Below the pieces are notes generated by a model. It made no database searches, was not told the DNA's origin, and was given only the letters and a program-made list of their open reading frames with translations. A program made the position numbers and the translations under genes. From positions 2,356,001-2,420,000 of the forward strand of contig NZ_CP089746.1 of assembly GCF_029541745.1 (NCBI RefSeq): a stretch of DNA of 64,000 nt, given 5' to 3'. Position 1 is the first letter of the stretch. Each line of letters opens with the position of its first letter. Below, piece after piece: positions 4,459 through 62,891 of the stretch. This stretch comes from Streptomyces sp. LX-29. Lineage in GTDB: Bacteria > Actinomycetota > Actinomycetes > Streptomycetales > Streptomycetaceae.

Positions 4459-4813
4459 AACTGTCCTCCTTCTCGGACGTACATCTCCGGCCGGGGACGC
4501 CATGGCCGCCGGCTGGGATGGGAGAAGTGCTACGTCCTCGGGAAGGAGAGCGCCCGGACCCCGGATGCCCGAACGCACCCGACATCGCCGGCGATCACCC
4601 CCGAGCGACAACCACTGGCCACGCTCTCGCGCAACCTGCTGGACAGGCCCTGCCGTCCTGGCAGAGACCCCCCTGTCCAAGGCCGGCGCCACTGCCGCCG
4701 GCCTCGCCCGGTGGGGACCCACCGCACCGCCGCGCCGACCGGCTGCCGGGCGTCGGGGATGGACCGAGCTTGGCCGATCGTGGTCCATTCCCGGCTGAGG
4801 CACAAGGGGTTCA

Positions 4814-10184: not shown

Positions 10185-10478
10185 CTACGCGGACAGGTGC
10201 CGTTCGACCGTTTCGACCTTGGAGGTCAGACCGTCGGTGACGCCCGGGCGGATGTCGGCCTTCAGGACGACCGAGACGCGCGGGGCGCGGGCCTCCACGG
10301 CGGCGACGGCGCGCTTGACGACGTCCATGACCTCGTCCCACTCGCCCTCGATGGAGGTGAACATCGCATCGGTGCGGTTCGGGAGCCCGGACTCGCGGAC
10401 GACGCGCACGGCGTCGGCGACGTACTCCCCCACGTCCTCGCCGACGCCCAGCGGGGTGACCGAGAACGCGACGATCAT
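10185..10478 (-). CDS. MTH1187 family thiamine-binding protein
   Basis: A 97-residue single-domain protein of the DUF77/MTH1187 family, small ferredoxin-like folds that bind thiamine-like ligands in the cytosol. The N-terminal strand [13 protein letters not shown] and the segment [21 protein letters not shown] are typical. The ATG at 10478 overlaps the stop of the upstream DUF3817 gene by 4 bp, so the two are translationally coupled. No thiamine biosynthesis genes lie nearby, so the physiological role is open. Confidence 0.85.
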
Positions 10479-13014: not shown

Positions 13015-13482
13015 ATGGAGACCGAGAACGGCACACGCTGGCTCAGCGACGACGAACAGCGCGCCTGGCGTGCCCATCTGGACGTCAGCAGGCTGTTGAT
13101 GCACCAGCTCGAACGTGACCTCCAGCCATTCGGTCTGACCAACAACGACTACGAGATCCTGGTCAACCTCTCCGAGTCCGAGGACCACCGGATGCGGATG
13201 AGCGACCTCGCCGCGGCCACGCTCCAGTCCAAGAGCCGGCTCTCCCACCAGATCACCCGCATGGAGAACGCCGGTCTGGTGCGCCGCGAGAACTGCGAGT
13301 CCGACCGGCGGGGACTCTACGCCGTGCTGACCGACCACGGCTGGGAGACCATGCGCACCGTCGCGCCGCACCATGTCGCCTCCGTACGCAGGCACTTCAT
13401 CGACCTGCTGGACCCCGCCGACCTCCAGGCCCTGCGGGCGTCGCTGACGCCGGTGGCGGACCACCTGCGCAACCAGCGGTAG
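13015..13482 (+). CDS. MarR family transcriptional regulator
   Basis: A 155-residue winged-helix regulator: helices RMRMSDLAAATLQSKSRLSH and ITRMENAGLV form the DNA-binding unit, followed by the wing ENCESDRRGLYAVLTDHG. I chose the ATG at 13015 because family members start at METE and TAGAAT ends 7 nt upstream; an in-frame GTG at 12952 would add 21 residues and has its own TANNNT hexamer at the same spacing. Neither start has a Shine-Dalgarno. The gene is monocistronic and closed by a hairpin. Targets unknown. Confidence 0.9.
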   Translation: METENGTRWLSDDEQRAWRAHLDVSRLLMHQLERDLQPFGLTNNDYEILVNLSESEDHRMRMSDLAAATLQSKSRLSHQITRMENAGLVRRENCESDRRGLYAVLTDHGWETMRTVAPHHVASVRRHFIDLLDPADLQALRASLTPVADHLRNQR

Positions 13483-13521
13483 CCGCCTCGCCCCGTGGGC
13501 GGCCACGACCGGTGAGGGGTG

Positions 13522-13545
13522 CCCCTCGCGCTCCCGGGCGAGGGG
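13522..13545 (+). terminator. terminator of the MarR gene
   Basis: Perfect 8-bp stem (CCCCTCGC with GCGAGGGG) and 8-nt loop, 39 nt after the stop. A second 9-bp stem (CGACGGTGG with CCACCGTCG, 13571-13606) follows. Confidence 0.6.
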
Positions 13546-13580
13546 TCGCCCCTCGGGCTCGTCGTCGCTACGACGGTGGG

Positions 13581-13630
13581 TTCGGCACCGCCGGGCTCCA
13601 CCGTCGTGGCCGGTCGCCGTTGCGGCGGGA
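13581..13630. repeat. single copy related to the repeats after nucS
   Basis: The stretch TTCGGCACCGCCG, two changed bases, then CTCCACCGTC and a GCGGCGG end matches the first half of the repeats at 34371, 34616 and 34761. It lies between convergent genes. Confidence 0.5.
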
Positions 13631-13752
13631 TGCGGGGGGGTACCCACCACGCCGGCCTGCGCCGCGCTGGCACGCGGCATGGGGACACCCTCGGCTCCCG
13701 CCGCCCGGCTCCGCCGTCGCCGTGCACCCTCCCCGGGGGTGACCGGGGCGGG

Positions 13753-15231
13753 TCAGGAGCGCTCCTCGGGGAGGCGGAGTTCGAACAGGGCCCCACCGGT
13801 GGGGGACTCGCGCAGCGTGAGGTCTCCGCCGTGGCGGCGGGCGACGTCGCGGGCGATGGCCAGGCCGAGGCCGGCGCCGCCGTCGTCGCGGGCGCGGGCG
13901 TCGTCCAGCCGGACGAAACGCTCGAAGACGCGCTCGCGGTCGCCGGGCGGCACGCCGTCGCCGTCGTCGGCGACCGACAGCACCACCGCGGGCCGCTCGC
14001 CGGCCACCCGCCGCAGCTCCACCCGCACCTCGCCCCGCGCATGCCGCTGGGCGTTGTCCAGAAGGTTGCCCAGCACGCGCGCGAGCTGGCTGTGCGAGCC
14101 GGCGACCTCCACCCCGGGCAGCTCGCCGGTGCGTACCGGAACGCGGTCGCCGACGCGCTGGGCGAGCTCCTCGCGCACCAGCTGGGCCAGTGCCACCCGG
14201 GCGGCCGGCGGCGGGCGCTCGCCGGCGTCCAGCCGGGCCAGCAACAGCAGGTCGGCCGCCAGCCGCTGGAGCCGCACCACGTCCTCCACGGCCCCGTCCA
14301 CGTCCAGCAGCTCGGGGTGCGCGGCCCCCACCTCCAGCTGGGTGCGCAGGCTGGCGATGGGCGAGCGCAGCTCGTGGGAGGCGTCGGCGACGAACCGCCG
14401 CTGCCGCTCCACGGCCGTCTCCAGCGCGGCCAGCGTCTCGTTGGTGGTGCGCGCCAGCGCCGCGACCTCGTCCCGCGCCTCCGGCTCCGGAACCCGACGC
14501 GTCAGGTCCGTGCTCGCCGTGATCGCGGCCATCTCGCGCCGGATCCCCTCGACCGGCCGCAGCGCCCGCCGCGTCACCAGCCAGGTCACGGCCGCCACCA
14601 CCGCCAGCAGCAGCGGCAGCCCGATGAGCATCGCGTCGCGCACCGAGCCGACCGCGTTCCGCTCGGTGGCCAGCGGCGCCCCGGCGTAGACGGTGACCGC
14701 CACCCCGTCCGGCGTGGCCGCGCGCACCGCGGCGAAGCGGTAGTCACCCGACTCGCCGTCCACGGCGGCGGAGCCGGTGGTGAAGCGCACGTCCTTGGAG
14801 ATCTCCCCCGGGCCGGCGGGCGCCTCGTCGTCGGTATCGTCGGCATCGTTTTCGGCCCCGTCGTCATCGCGGTCATCGCGGCCGGAGCTTTCGTCGGCCG
14901 GCGCCGGCGGGGCGCTCGTGGGCCGTACGGAGGCGCTGCCGGTCCCGTCGATCGCCTCCAGGTCATCGCTGACCGCCCGTACCCGCCCCGCCTCGTCCAC
15001 CACCTGCACCGGCGGCTCCTCGTCCAGCGAGAGTCGGTCGAAGGCGGTGCCGGTGGCGATCCGCGCGGCGACCTGACGCGCGTCGACGTGAGCCTGAAGC
15101 TGCGTCTGGTCGCGCAGGTTGGCCCGGAGCACCCCGAGCACCGCCAGGCCGGCGGCGACCAGGGCGACGGCGACCACCAGCGTGGCCCCGAGCGCGGCCC
15201 GCGCCCGGACGGAGCCGAACCACCTAGCCAC
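13753..15231 (-). CDS. two-component sensor histidine kinase
   Basis: A 492-residue membrane kinase. One N-terminal helix (about residues 13-36) and a second (about 190-210) frame an extracytoplasmic domain of roughly 150 residues that contains an Asp-rich segment (about 108-140). HAMP and HisKA follow, with the phospho-acceptor His286 in FVADASHELRSP, then an HATPase domain (NLLDNAQRHA, GLGLAIARDVA). It overlaps the response-regulator gene by 8 bp and is the second gene of the pair. A secreted PepSY protein is divergently encoded next door. From memory the locus equals the RapA1/A2-type pair of S. coelicolor; that identity is not proven here. Confidence 0.93.
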   Translation of the reverse strand: MARWFGSVRARAALGATLVVAVALVAAGLAVLGVLRANLRDQTQLQAHVDARQVAARIATGTAFDRLSLDEEPPVQVVDEAGRVRAVSDDLEAIDGTGSASVRPTSAPPAPADESSGRDDRDDDGAENDADDTDDEAPAGPGEISKDVRFTTGSAAVDGESGDYRFAAVRAATPDGVAVTVYAGAPLATERNAVGSVRDAMLIGLPLLLAVVAAVTWLVTRRALRPVEGIRREMAAITASTDLTRRVPEPEARDEVAALARTTNETLAALETAVERQRRFVADASHELRSPIASLRTQLEVGAAHPELLDVDGAVEDVVRLQRLAADLLLLARLDAGERPPPAARVALAQLVREELAQRVGDRVPVRTGELPGVEVAGSHSQLARVLGNLLDNAQRHARGEVRVELRRVAGERPAVVLSVADDGDGVPPGDRERVFERFVRLDDARARDDGGAGLGLAIARDVARRHGGDLTLRESPTGGALFELRLPEERS

Positions 15232-33610: not shown

Positions 33611-34273
33611 ATGCGTCTCGTCATCGCCCGTTGCTCCGTGGACTACGCGGGCCGGCTCACCGCCCACCTTCCGTCGGCACCCCGCCTCATCCTGATCAAG
33701 GCCGACGGCAGTGTGTCCATTCACGCGGATGACCGGGCCTACAAGCCCCTCAACTGGATGTCGCCGCCGTGCACCCTGAAGGAGGGGGACGGCAGTGTCT
33801 GGACGGTGGTGAACAAGGCGGGCGAGAAGCTCATCATCACCATGGAGGAGATCCTTCACGACTCCTCGCATGAGCTCGGGGTGGACCCCGGACTGATCAA
33901 AGACGGCGTGGAAGCGCACCTTCAGGAGCTGCTCGCCGATCGGATCGAGACACTTGGCGATGGCTGGACGCTTATTCGGCGTGAATACCCCACTGCCATT
34001 GGCCCCGTGGACATTCTCTGCCGGGACGCCGACGGGGCGACCGTCGCCATCGAGATCAAGCGCCGCGGAGAGATCGACGGCGTCGAGCAGCTCACCCGCT
34101 ACCTCGAGCTCCTCAACCGCGACCCGCACCTCGCCCCCGTCAAGGGCGTCTTCGCCGCCCAGGAGATCAAGCCCCAGGCCCGCGTTCTCGCGACGGACCG
34201 GGGCATCGGGTGCGTCGTCCTCGACTACGACGCGTTGCGCGGCGTGGACGACGACAAGCTGCGCCTGTTCTGA
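33611..34273 (+). CDS. nucS: mismatch endonuclease NucS
   Basis: A 220-residue nuclease that cuts mismatched double-stranded DNA and replaces MutS/MutL in actinobacteria. The C-terminal RecB-like domain carries Asp134 (GPVDIL), Glu148 and Lys150 (AIEIKRRG), followed by [12 protein letters not shown]. The C-terminus DDKLRLF ends in the LRLF motif known to bind the sliding clamp. The ATG follows a TANNNT hexamer by 8 nt and has no ribosome site, so a leaderless mRNA is likely. An 11-bp terminator with a T-rich tail follows. Loss of this gene elsewhere gives a mutator phenotype. Confidence 0.96.
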
Positions 34274-34287
34274 CCCACGGCTTCCCG

Positions 34288-34315
34288 GCCCGGGGCCCCT
34301 CTTCGGGCCCCGGGC
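34288..34315 (+). terminator. terminator of nucS
   Basis: 11-bp perfect stem (GCCCGGGGCCC with GGGCCCCGGGC), 6-nt loop, followed by TTCGCGTTTT: the most canonical terminator in the window. Confidence 0.88.
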
Positions 34316-34370
34316 TTCGCGTTTTCCCCTGCGGGGCGCGAGTCGCGTATGGGGGCCGAGCCCCCTCCAT

Positions 34371-34482
34371 GCCTTGTTTCGGCACCGCCGAACTCCACCG
34401 TCACGCGTCCCGCCGTCGCGGCGGAATCAAGGCCCCGGCCTACGCGGAAGGCCCCCGCCAAGGGCGTACGGGATGAGGGCAG
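34371..34482. repeat. intergenic direct repeat, copy 1
   Basis: Begins GCCTTGTTTCGGCACCGCCG, contains a CCGCC-GTCGC-GGCGG hairpin and ends with GGGATGAGGGCAG. About 94 percent identical to copy 2 by eye over 105 bp. Confidence 0.8.
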
Positions 34483-34615
34483 CGGCCCCTGGCCCCGCCG
34501 TCGCGCGCCGGCGTCGGCGCGGCACGGGGGGCAGCCAGCAGCGACCACCACGACGCGGGCCGGCGGCCGCCGGCCACCGCCAGCAGCGGGAAGCCGGCGG
34601 ACCCGAACCCACCGC

Positions 34616-34742
34616 GCCTTGTTTCGGCACCGCCGAACACCGCCGTCACGCGTCCCGCCGTCGCGGCGGAATGAAGGCCCTGGCCTACGCGGAAGGCCCC
34701 CGCCAAGGGCCTACGGGATGAGGGGCAGTCCCTCGCCCCGCC
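34616..34742. repeat. intergenic direct repeat, copy 2
   Basis: Same unit as copy 1, starting 245 bp later, with a few substitutions, and extending slightly further to a shared CCCCGCCG end. Confidence 0.8.
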
Positions 34743-34760
34743 GCCGGCAGCAACCACCGC

Positions 34761-34835
34761 GCCTTGATCGGCACCGCCGAACTCCGCCGTCTCACGTCCC
34801 GCCGTCGCGGCGGGATGAAGAAGGCCCTCGTCCGC
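34761..34835. repeat. intergenic direct repeat, copy 3 (partial)
   Basis: Matches the first 60-75 bp of the unit, 145 bp after copy 2, and abuts the 3' end of the NTPase gene, where its CCCGCC-GGCGGG hairpin could act as terminator. Confidence 0.7.
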
Positions 34836-34844
34836 AGCGACCGG

Positions 34845-37451
34845 TCAGGCCGTCGGGGTTTCCGGGGCCGGCTCGGGGGCGGTGGCGGTGGTGGGGAGGG
34901 GGCCGGTGGCCGTGTTGGTGGCGGTGCTGGGCGGGTTGGTGGGCGGCGTCGTCGGCGGGGTGGTCGGCGGCGTCGTGGGCGGCGTCGTCGGCGGGGTGGT
35001 CGGCGGCGTCGTCGTGGGGGTGGGTCCGGTGGTCCGGGTCGGCGTCGGGCTCGTGGTCGGCGGGTCGGTCGGCGTGGTCGGCCGGCCGGTCGGGCTCGGC
35101 GATCCGCTGGGCTCGCCGGAGCCGGACGGCGAGGGTTCGCCGCTCGTCGAGGGGTCGCCGGGTTCGGCGCTGCCGGAGGGCGAGCCGCCGGAGGCCGACG
35201 GGATCGGGGCGGCACCGCTGACGCCGGGCCGCGGCTGCTGGTCGCCGCCGTCCGGCACCGGCTCGTCGGCGGTGAGCCCGTCGTCCTCGTCCTGCTGGGA
35301 CGCCGACTGGCCCGGCTTGCCGGGGTTCGCCGGCTTGCCCTCGTCCTCGTTCCCGGAGGTGGCGCCCAGGGTGACGACGGTGCCGAGCACCGCCACCAGC
35401 AGGGCGCCGGCACCCGCCGCGACCAGGTTGCGCCGGGCCCCGGTCAGGGCCATCCACGACAGCGTACGCCGCGGCTTGCCGCCGCTTCCGGGAGCGCCCG
35501 CGCCGCCGACGGCGCTCGCGCCGGCCGTGCCGCTCGCGCCGCCCGGGAGGCCGGTGGGGGCCGCGCTGGGCGCCGCGGCGGCGGAGGTGACCGCCGTGGT
35601 CGCGCTGTCCCCGGGGACCGGCGCCGGGACGCCGCCCGGCGGAGAGGCCGACTGTTCGGTGCGGGCGTCCGGGACCTCCTCGCCCGGCGCGGTGCCTCCG
35701 GGCGCCGCCGGGGCCGGTCGCGTCGGGCCGCCGGAACGGTCGGCGACCAGGGCCAGGGCGCGCCGCCCGGCCACCGCGCCGCGGCGGTCGGAGAGCACGC
35801 CGCGGAGGCCGATGGACGCCTCCAGCTCGGCCCGCGCCCGGTCCAGGTTGCCGCTGCACAGTGCGAGAACGCCCAGCTCGTGGTGGAAGTACGCCTCCTC
35901 GGCGACCTCCCCCGCCAGTCGGGCGGCCTCCTGGCCGTGCCGCAGGGTGCGCTCCCAGGCGCCCCAGGCCAGCGCGCCGGCGAAGGCGGGCGCGGCGGTG
36001 CGGGCCAGCAGCACGGCGGCGCTGGTCTGGGCGGCCACACGGGCGGCGATCAGGGCGGACAGGGTGGCGAGGACGGCGTCCGCCTCCAGGGCGACGCGCT
36101 CGGCGGCGACCGAGGGGTGGCCGGCCCACCAGGCGTAGTGCTGGGCGACGCCGAGCGCGTGCTCGGGCGCCTCCTCGGCGTACCCGGCGGCGGTCAGCTG
36201 GGCGACCACGCCGCCGGCGAGCCGGTAGTGCGGCCCGGTGGCGGTGATCAGACCGCAGCCCAGCAGTTCCCCGATGGCGGCGTCGGCGTGGGTGTCCCCG
36301 GTCAGGGCGGGCAGATGGGACTGGTGGGGCAGCTCGCCGCCGAGGGCGACCGCGAACCGCAGCGCGTGGCGGGCGGCCTCGCTGAGCCGGGAGGCCAGCA
36401 GGGCGGCCGGGGCGACGCCCTCGGCCAGGGTGGGCAGCGGTACCGTCTCGCCGCCGTTCGCGTCGTCGGTCTCCGCCGGCTGGGCGGGGACGGGCGCCTT
36501 GGTGAGGTCGCCGTAGCTGTCGAAGGAGCCGGGCGCGGCCCGCAGTTCGTCCAGTTGGCGCAGCAGCGCCCCGGCCTGGACGAAGCGCAGCGGCAGGCCC
36601 TCGGACTCGAACCACAGGTCGGCGGCCCAGTCGGCCTCCTCCTCGGTGAGCGGGCGTCGGGCGGCCTGCTCCAGCAGTTCCAGGCAGCCGTTCTGGCTCA
36701 GCCCGCTGAGGAACATCTCCTCCAGGTGCGAGCCGGAGGAGGGTGCCGGGACGTCCGGGGTGGCGGAGATCAGAAAGGCGCACTCGGGCGTGGCGTCGAG
36801 GAACTCGTCCAGGGCCACGCCGCCGAACTCGAGGTCGTCCAGGACGACGACCGCGCCGATGTCGGCGACCGCGGCCAGCAGCTCCTCGCGGTCGGGGCGG
36901 TGGACGGAGCCGCCCGCGCCGTAGACGGCGGCGTACAGCTCGTGCAGCAGGTCGGCGGAGGTGCGGTGGTAGCCGGTCAGTCGCACCACGCCGTCCGGGG
37001 CCAGCTCCACGCAGTCCTCGGCGACGGCGTCCAACAGCACGGTGCGGCCGGCACCGGAGGGGCCGGTCAGCCGCACCGAGCGGCCGCGGGAGAGCAGTCG
37101 TACCAGCCGCTCCCGCTCCTCCTCGCGCTCCAGCGTCGGCAGCTCGGGCAGGCCAGGGCCGGTGGGCGGCTGCGGGCCGGCGGCGCGGCGCAGCTCGGTC
37201 CGCTCCTCCTCGGTGTGTCGGCGCGCGCCCGCGGGTCGGCGGCTGGGCGGGCAGGGCTCTATCTCGCTGCCGTCGACCGGGTTGACGGTGACCAGCAGAT
37301 CGCCGGAGACCAGTTGGGTGGTGCGGGCGGGTCCGGACGGCGGGGTCAGATCCCGCGGCGGCGGTACGGCGCCGCCGTCGCCGGCGCGGGGCGCCGGGTC
37401 CTCGTGACCGTGCTCGTCCGGTCCCGCGGGTCCCATCGTCGTCGGGTCCAT
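34845..37451 (-). CDS. membrane-anchored P-loop NTPase with Pro/Thr repeat tail
   Basis: An 868-residue protein. A Pro-rich N-terminus (about 110 residues) precedes an STAND/AAA-like P-loop domain: Walker A GPSGAGRT near residue 128, Walker B AVVVLDDLEF, then helical repeats up to about residue 560. After an Ala/Gly/Pro-rich linker comes one membrane helix (about 671-694) and an outward tail rich in Pro/Ser/Thr, with TTPPTTPPTTPP repeats (about 808-851), probably glycosylated. The ATPase lies in the cytoplasm with the tail outside. It is downstream of the STAS gene in the same direction. Substrate and partners are unknown. Confidence 0.82.
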   Translation of the reverse strand: MDPTTMGPAGPDEHGHEDPAPRAGDGGAVPPPRDLTPPSGPARTTQLVSGDLLVTVNPVDGSEIEPCPPSRRPAGARRHTEEERTELRRAAGPQPPTGPGLPELPTLEREEERERLVRLLSRGRSVRLTGPSGAGRTVLLDAVAEDCVELAPDGVVRLTGYHRTSADLLHELYAAVYGAGGSVHRPDREELLAAVADIGAVVVLDDLEFGGVALDEFLDATPECAFLISATPDVPAPSSGSHLEEMFLSGLSQNGCLELLEQAARRPLTEEEADWAADLWFESEGLPLRFVQAGALLRQLDELRAAPGSFDSYGDLTKAPVPAQPAETDDANGGETVPLPTLAEGVAPAALLASRLSEAARHALRFAVALGGELPHQSHLPALTGDTHADAAIGELLGCGLITATGPHYRLAGGVVAQLTAAGYAEEAPEHALGVAQHYAWWAGHPSVAAERVALEADAVLATLSALIAARVAAQTSAAVLLARTAAPAFAGALAWGAWERTLRHGQEAARLAGEVAEEAYFHHELGVLALCSGNLDRARAELEASIGLRGVLSDRRGAVAGRRALALVADRSGGPTRPAPAAPGGTAPGEEVPDARTEQSASPPGGVPAPVPGDSATTAVTSAAAAPSAAPTGLPGGASGTAGASAVGGAGAPGSGGKPRRTLSWMALTGARRNLVAAGAGALLVAVLGTVVTLGATSGNEDEGKPANPGKPGQSASQQDEDDGLTADEPVPDGGDQQPRPGVSGAAPIPSASGGSPSGSAEPGDPSTSGEPSPSGSGEPSGSPSPTGRPTTPTDPPTTSPTPTRTTGPTPTTTPPTTPPTTPPTTPPTTPPTTPPTNPPSTATNTATGPLPTTATAPEPAPETPTA
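34900..35030 (-). repeat. tandem repeats encoding the Pro/Thr tail
   Basis: A GGCGGCGTCGTC/GGCGGGGTGGTC pattern of 12- and 24-bp units encodes the TTPP repeats of the NTPase. Length variation by slippage is expected. Confidence 0.7.
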
Positions 37452-62732: not shown

Positions 62733-62891
62733 GGTTTCTCCTAGGTTCGGGAGGGCACCGGGTCGCAGCGGCGGGTTGCCGTACGTGAACCGGGGCCGAC
62801 GTACCAGTCTGCCAGTACTGGCCGTATCCCCCAAAACCGGGGGTGGGCGCCGGGTATTCCCGACCGCCGCCGCAGGGCGGCGACGGCGGGG

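Follow-up and report, generated by a model that had tools for sequence, protein, structure and literature searches.

Three direct copies of a short repeat lie between nucS and its convergent neighbor in Streptomyces sp. LX-29, and they belong to a family with dozens of further copies elsewhere in the same genome. This family probably consists of short (~55-nt), non-autonomous, dispersed, palindromic Streptomyces repeats that are REP/BIME-like in anatomy and behavior, with copying proposed to have come in bursts. We read it as a family that was mobile in the past, untagged and REP/BIME-like. It is undescribed in the literature searched, in that no description of a Streptomyces REP family was recognized in the available parts of the open-license PMC papers.

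The repeat array downstream of nucS

The window (the whole 64,000-nt stretch of DNA that was analyzed) carries nucS at 33611 to 34273 on the forward strand, called by the gene finder (our own codon-usage script, used for gene calls throughout) and confirmed by the Pfam families NucS_N and NucS_C, as a reading made earlier from the sequence only had proposed. Facing it on the reverse strand, at 34845 to 37451, the gene finder called a gene for an 868-aa protein with a weak AAA_16 match below Pfam's cut-off. Between the two genes, covariance-model matches were obtained for three forward-strand copies of the repeat: a 68-position match at 34369 to 34436 (copy 1, 75.0 bits) and matches at 34614 to 34681 (copy 2, 75.7 bits) and 34758 to 34825 (copy 3, 72.7 bits). 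All three have E ≤ 4.8e-15 for the window; these scores are partly circular, as two model ends rest on these same copies, but plain BLASTN also picks up the other copies. Copies 1 and 2 each lie inside a longer forward-strand repeat (34363 to 34479 and 34608 to 34724) that is 93% identical over 117 bp, whereas copy 3 consists of the core only and has about 53 to 60 bp in common with the others (92% identity over 53 nt at 34768 to 34820). The sequence-only reading was right about the place and the number of the copies, but its unit of up to about 125 bp holds for two of them only, at 117 bp. The core-plus-flank repeat of copies 1 and 2 may be taken as a sign of local duplication. The triplet is one array of the family, its simplest course being a single arrival followed by duplication on the spot.

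No gene was called within 34274 to 34844. That reading had seen no open reading frame in the repeats, although mechanical ones do cross the array. Only 20 nt separate the match of copy 3 from the convergent gene's 3' end, on which the third copy had correctly been said to abut. There was no Rfam covariance-model match at E ≤ 1 in 34274 to 34844. Elsewhere in the window, Rfam matched a che1 RNA (RF02935) at 4589 to 4679 (99.3 bits) and the actinobacterial L31 ribosomal protein leader (RF03158) at 62754 to 62799 (50.9 bits), both on the reverse strand. The Thr/Pro-rich C-terminal tail (PTTPPTTPP) of the convergent gene product is coded by tandem GTCGGCGGCGT-type repeats at about 34915 to 35094.

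Upstream of all three copies, at 34288 to 34325 on the forward strand, we recognized by eye a G+C hairpin followed by TTCGCGTTTT, which the pattern scan did not call. This hairpin and T-run region is also present in Streptomyces sp. SAJ15, and judged from its sequence it is likely to be the terminator of nucS itself. The pattern scan called one terminator-like site, at 34347 to 34372, where copy 1 begins and immediately ahead of it, with 0.4 expected by chance. Inspection of a 23-copy consensus revealed no T-tract in the core on either strand. Because the copies are without a T-tract and nucS has its own upstream hairpin and T-run, they are unlikely to serve as the main terminator of nucS, and the suggestion of a mobile terminator finds no support in these features or in a scan result near chance.

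Anatomy of the unit

When the 117-bp segment was searched by BLASTN in its own genome, 60 matches were returned at E ≤ 10, mostly confined to the first 60 to 80 bases. Alignment of 23 copies yielded the gap-poor core consensus GGTTCGGCACCGCCGGACTCCGCCGTCGGGCNTCTCGCCGTCGCGGCGGGATGA. The information profile of 30 copies (one copy per site, except two from one gap) goes up from about model position 4 and down after about 62, which gives the unit fairly sharp edges: roughly 55 nt are conserved, and little is in the 70 bases to each side. Two different short stems are possible within the unit, one closed by loop ACC and the other by loop TCG, each of up to 7 bp, so the hairpin noticed in the repeat at the outset can indeed form. 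Folding of single copies was barely better than that of shuffled sequences, with z of −1.8 to +0.6 as RNA on either strand and −1.9 as DNA (one copy). Compensatory change in the stem arms was likewise not above shuffles (5 double-change cells versus a shuffled mean of 3.5), and covariation was dropped as support for an RNA role. The hairpin arms are kept by sequence, not by compensation. A structural role is not demonstrated, because folding of the single hairpin is weak, compensatory change shows no excess, and the arms of the inverted pairs described below do not match.

The two ends of the consensus unit are not complementary, and terminal inverted repeats are therefore absent. By inspection, there is no GTAG in the 23-copy consensus; the letters CGTC occur within the unit and spanning a stem and its loop, but nowhere stand unpaired at an end beside a stem. 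In the flanks of copies at four loci (L165, L166, L170, and L174), the second hairpin was seen by eye to recur without the first, beside full copies, as if the 3' half had been duplicated separately.

Copies across the genome and their gene context

A covariance model built from 23 own-genome copies (R1) was run against the 8.23-Mb genome and returned 53 matches at E ≤ 1e-5, or 89 when everything up to E ≤ 1 is counted; its E-values are rough, and with such a source distant subfamilies may be missed. The unit is not unique to the nucS site, whereas uniqueness would have pointed to local duplication only, as the sequence-only reading had stated; a fourth, solitary copy lies in the window itself, at 13572 to 13640 on the forward strand (56.7 bits), the one own-genome match elsewhere in the window, in another convergent gap (13482 to 13753).

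The gene context was analyzed in 40 regions with 82 matches, of which 71 were used and 11 below 29 bits were dropped. All 71 copies lie outside predicted genes, distributed over 44 gene gaps. Convergent gaps account for 28 of the 44, co-directional gaps for 15, and a divergent gap for 1, the last being 1,669 bp long and perhaps hiding a missed gene. Among 139 background gaps, 11 were convergent, 81 co-directional, and 47 divergent (Fisher P = 2.6e-13 for the convergent excess), but 93 of these flank element sites and are hence convergent-poor; the remaining 46, taken from the window plus two further stretches, comprised 5 convergent, 31 co-directional, and 10 divergent gaps. The convergent bias can reflect removal of copies near promoters or a role at gene 3' ends, and the data fit both. 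Where two copies lie within 300 bp of each other, 23 of 26 adjacent pairs are oriented head to tail. Sites of at least 45 bits span about 1.27 to 6.24 Mb of the chromosome, with weaker matches reaching further out; the outer arms are free of sites at this score, as though the arms had arisen after the spread or did not suit it. The 58 genes beside the 29 gaps that score 45 bits or more had matches to 119 Pfam families, and among the 25 commonest there was no transposase and no family with more than 2 members.

Comparison with the near-identical strain SAJ15

SAJ15 is the nearest named relative, with 97% identity in the neighboring 868-aa protein. We could pair 28 of the 44 element gaps with SAJ15, the other 16 being mostly not fetched or split over two contigs; 24 were occupied in both strains and 4 were empty in SAJ15. 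Copy number was unequal in 9 of the 24 gaps occupied in both. When three of the four SAJ15-empty gaps were aligned, the differences exceeded the element, left remnants, or fell among short repeats, and there was no clean insertion and no target duplication in these three cases. Of the empty sites and flanking duplications that the sequence-only reading had thought worth seeking, none of the former was clean among the cases aligned, and the latter did not appear. The nucS gap of SAJ15 has two copies and no copy 3. Since arrays differ between the two strains in copy number without clean insertion, present dynamics are those of duplication and deletion: change within the species runs by tandem duplication and deletion.

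Other differences between the strains were seen at individual loci. The SAJ15 nucS gap (L051) has a run of ~17-base repeats of the unit's 5' end before copy 1, which is absent from the window genome. At another locus (L178 versus L280), SAJ15 is without the inner parts of an inverted pair, a type of deletion expected at palindromes. At L211, a strong SAJ15 copy (C32:528385) stands where the window genome (5611514 to 5613549) has a different stretch of ~2 kb, a difference unlike the usual duplication or deletion. Copies lie within ~300 bases of SAJ15 contig ends in C2, C3, C8, C15, C21, and C62, and the arrays seem to break this assembly.

Between the window genome and SAJ15, identity over 13 single-copy gaps is 90% for the core (631/700) and 85% for the flank (2029/2401); strong selection cannot be claimed from this, because the difference is small and intact copies were chosen.

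Spread among species

A match at E ≤ 0.01 was found in 46 of 121 sampled Streptomyces genomes, with a best match of E ≤ 1e-5 in 19, and 7 of the 121 were abundant carriers (at least 10 matches). Among 50 named relatives, 10 had 8 or more matches, 7 had 1 to 3, and 33 had none among the candidates scored. All these counts are lower bounds set by the number of first-look candidates scored per genome, which was 42 in the 121-genome set, 102 in the 50-genome set, and 17 in the class-wide set. Copies numbered at least 102 in S. hiroshimensis, at least 62 in SAJ15, at least 38 in both S. abikoensis and S. iconiensis, at least 14 in S. netropsis, at least 12 in S. spirodelae, at least 10 in each of S. 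olivoverticillatus, S. oryzae, and S. mashuensis, and at least 8 in S. smyrnaeus. On a tree of NucS and the neighboring protein, the high-copy label requires 7 changes, at least 6 of them on well-supported branches, and is still more clustered than in most shuffles (12 of 500 were as low). Among 296 genomes of the class, from 114 genera, E ≤ 1e-5 was passed only by LX-29 itself, and by none in the 113 other genera. There was no match at E ≤ 0.01 in the plasmid and phage collections, and no carrier was identified there.

At the nucS gap itself, nucS and the convergent gene were both found in 49 relatives with the convergent order kept in all 49, and strong copies were present in one of them, SAJ15, with a weak 23.6-bit match in one other (L102). 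For two other rich carriers, G084 and G008, we compared 20 loci each with 40 regions of the window genome and found the gap also occupied there for 2 of 20 and 1 of 20 loci, respectively; in G008, a copy also follows, on the downstream side, the orthologue of the window's gene at 10185 to 10478, where the window has no copy. Given so few shared sites among the loci compared, the copies are mostly lineage-specific, which fits dispersal better than an old fixed signal, and part of the family may be older because 3 of the 40 compared loci share a gap. Taking the last copy per locus (n = 40), the two genomes together gave 14 convergent, 18 co-directional, and 1 divergent context, with 4 at a contig end and 3 overlapping a predicted gene; the overlaps concern 3 of 20 G084 loci, where gene predictions are unchecked. 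The convergent preference is weaker in these two genomes than in the window genome. Genes between widely spaced G008 copies and beside G084 arrays were ordinary (6 proteins).

We put a neutral or selfish repeat first among the readings. It is unlikely that the repeat is instead a host-recruited site kept by selection, whether as a 3'-end signal that works in both directions, for transcript ending or RNA stability, or as a site between convergent genes where a nucleoid protein or gyrase binds. The strong convergent bias, at 28 of 44 gaps, would suit such a site, and BIMEs are reported as protein binding sites in the available text of PMC2817692; yet no copies were found in 33 of 50 named relatives among the candidates scored, and few sites are common between species. 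The higher identity of the core than of the flank points the same way as the bias, but so small a gap can arise from choosing intact copies. Against a 3'-end signal also stand the missing T-tract, the hairpin and T-run that nucS already has upstream, and the lack of compensatory excess.

Inverted pairs and the search for a mobilizer

Adjacent copies are inverted in 16 of 19 pairs in G084, 3 of 9 in G008, and 3 of 26 in the window genome. The 5'-5' pairs of G084 are spaced 58 to 73 bp start to start, and three of the nine, folded as single-stranded DNA, gave long hairpins (z = −7.5, −3.1, and −9.1). Arm identity was 0.641 within versus 0.686 between the nine 5'-5' pairs (permutation P = 0.99) and 0.655 within versus 0.688 between the seven 3'-3' pairs (P = 0.94). 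Arm-to-arm matching inside the G084 pairs was rejected, since likeness within pairs is not above that between them; to the eye, each pair seems to join two distinct subtypes, in the manner of BIME heterodimers.

That a RAYT (a Y1 tyrosine transposase) moves the repeat as part of a true REPIN/REP system is improbable. RAYTs, which we take to belong to PF01797 (Y1 transposases), would accord with the inverted pairs of G084 and with PF01797 matches over cut-off in 6 of the 15 genomes that carry 8 or more copies. By carrier set, such matches occur in 1 of 7 in the first, 5 of 7 in the second (three of those partial or broken), and 0 of 2 in the further set. But PF01797 has no match in the window genome, and none over cut-off in SAJ15, G084, G008, or S. 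hiroshimensis, which are among the richest carriers; it does match over cut-off in 9 of 33 zero-copy and 5 of 7 few-copy named genomes, and in none of 7 further no-copy genomes. We read this as no clear association between Y1 presence and element copy number. Eight PF01797 loci were scanned for the element without a good match (best 14.8 bits), and the unit has no GTAG tag. RAYT-driven movement is unsupported, although a RAYT may have been lost, and no other mobilizer candidate was found. It is possible, though less likely than not, that the repeats form a REP-like class without a tag, restricted to Streptomyces as sampled, moved by an enzyme unrelated to RAYT/Y1, and occurring in single and inverted-dimer forms according to species.

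The REP/MITE-like label given at first sight proved apt for a dispersed, extragenic, palindromic, clustered repeat lying mostly beyond gene 3' ends, but not in its strict MITE sense. That the unit is what remains of an insertion sequence after loss of its interior, bounded by terminal inverted repeats and mobilized by a DDE-type transposase, is very doubtful: size, dispersal, and extragenic location are compatible with it, but the unit ends are not mutual inverted repeats, the three cases aligned with SAJ15 lack target duplication, and the plasmid and phage collections hold no match. Local duplication at the nucS site and nothing more, which the 117 bp common to copies 1 and 2 and the different copy number in SAJ15 might suggest, has almost no chance of being right, as it explains the array but not the dozens of copies elsewhere in the genome.

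Proposed course and significance

Under the preferred reading of a past-mobile, REP/BIME-like repeat, an enzyme acting in trans would have copied the unit, either as a single element or, in some species, as an inverted pair. Copying probably went through a single-stranded hairpin form, with insertion into many gene gaps occurring, we infer, in bursts in a few lineages. Copies would then have been tolerated mainly beyond the 3' ends of genes.

Streptomyces is a genus of large, much-studied genomes that the available text of the REP and stem-loop catalogues does not describe. With bursts in some species, none found in neighbors, and the usual transposase missing, the family lends itself to comparisons aimed at the mover of untagged REP-like repeats, which the available text of PMC3733652 also leaves open for CGTC repeats. 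As the arrays vary between near-identical strains and sit at several SAJ15 contig ends, they are also relevant to typing and assembly.

Relation to known repeat systems

The papers compared here were available in part, and each statement refers to the part available. PMC3733652 defines a REP as a single palindrome of 20 to 40 bp, one end of which bears an unpaired tag, GTAG or CGTC, and describes tagged REPs as extragenic, in dimers, and mainly between convergent and co-directional genes; head-to-tail dimers are absent or rare in most families, and the CGTC class is without a dedicated transposase, so that what moves it is left open. That account of REP super-families names neither Streptomyces nor actinobacteria in its main text, nor does Streptomyces occur in the main texts on RAYTs and BIMEs (PMC2817692), REPINs (PMC3116915), or stem-loop families (PMC2267715); in PMC1590033, on stem-loop repeat families, it occurs only in the reference list, and PMC4681348 mentions REPs as those of E. 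coli.

Like the intergenic repeated stem-loops of PMC2267715 and PMC1590033, the Streptomyces repeat is an intergenic stem-loop in many copies. It resembles REPINs (PMC3116915) in the hairpin-forming inverted doublets seen in G084 and in its tandem arrays of unit plus flank, but differs in that singles and direct tandems prevail in the window genome (23 of 26 adjacent pairs) and in having no RAYT. With BIMEs (PMC2817692) it shares an extragenic location and, in G084, regularly spaced units of alternating orientation; unlike the RAYT-associated REPs of the same paper, it has no GTAG head, and the window genome and several of the richest carriers have no rayt gene. It is like the GTAG/CGTC REPs (PMC3733652) in being short, palindromic, extragenic, high in copy number, frequently dimeric, and placed in convergent or co-directional gaps (43 of 44 here), and like the CGTC REPs it has no dedicated transposase that we could find. 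Unlike them, its unit is about 55 nt with two different hairpins, carries neither a GTAG nor a CGTC tag beside a stem, and, in contrast to most REP families, occurs in the window genome mostly as head-to-tail tandems. Its size and want of a tag set it apart even though it works in a REP/BIME-like way, so we class the family as REP-like but untagged, outside the REPs proper.
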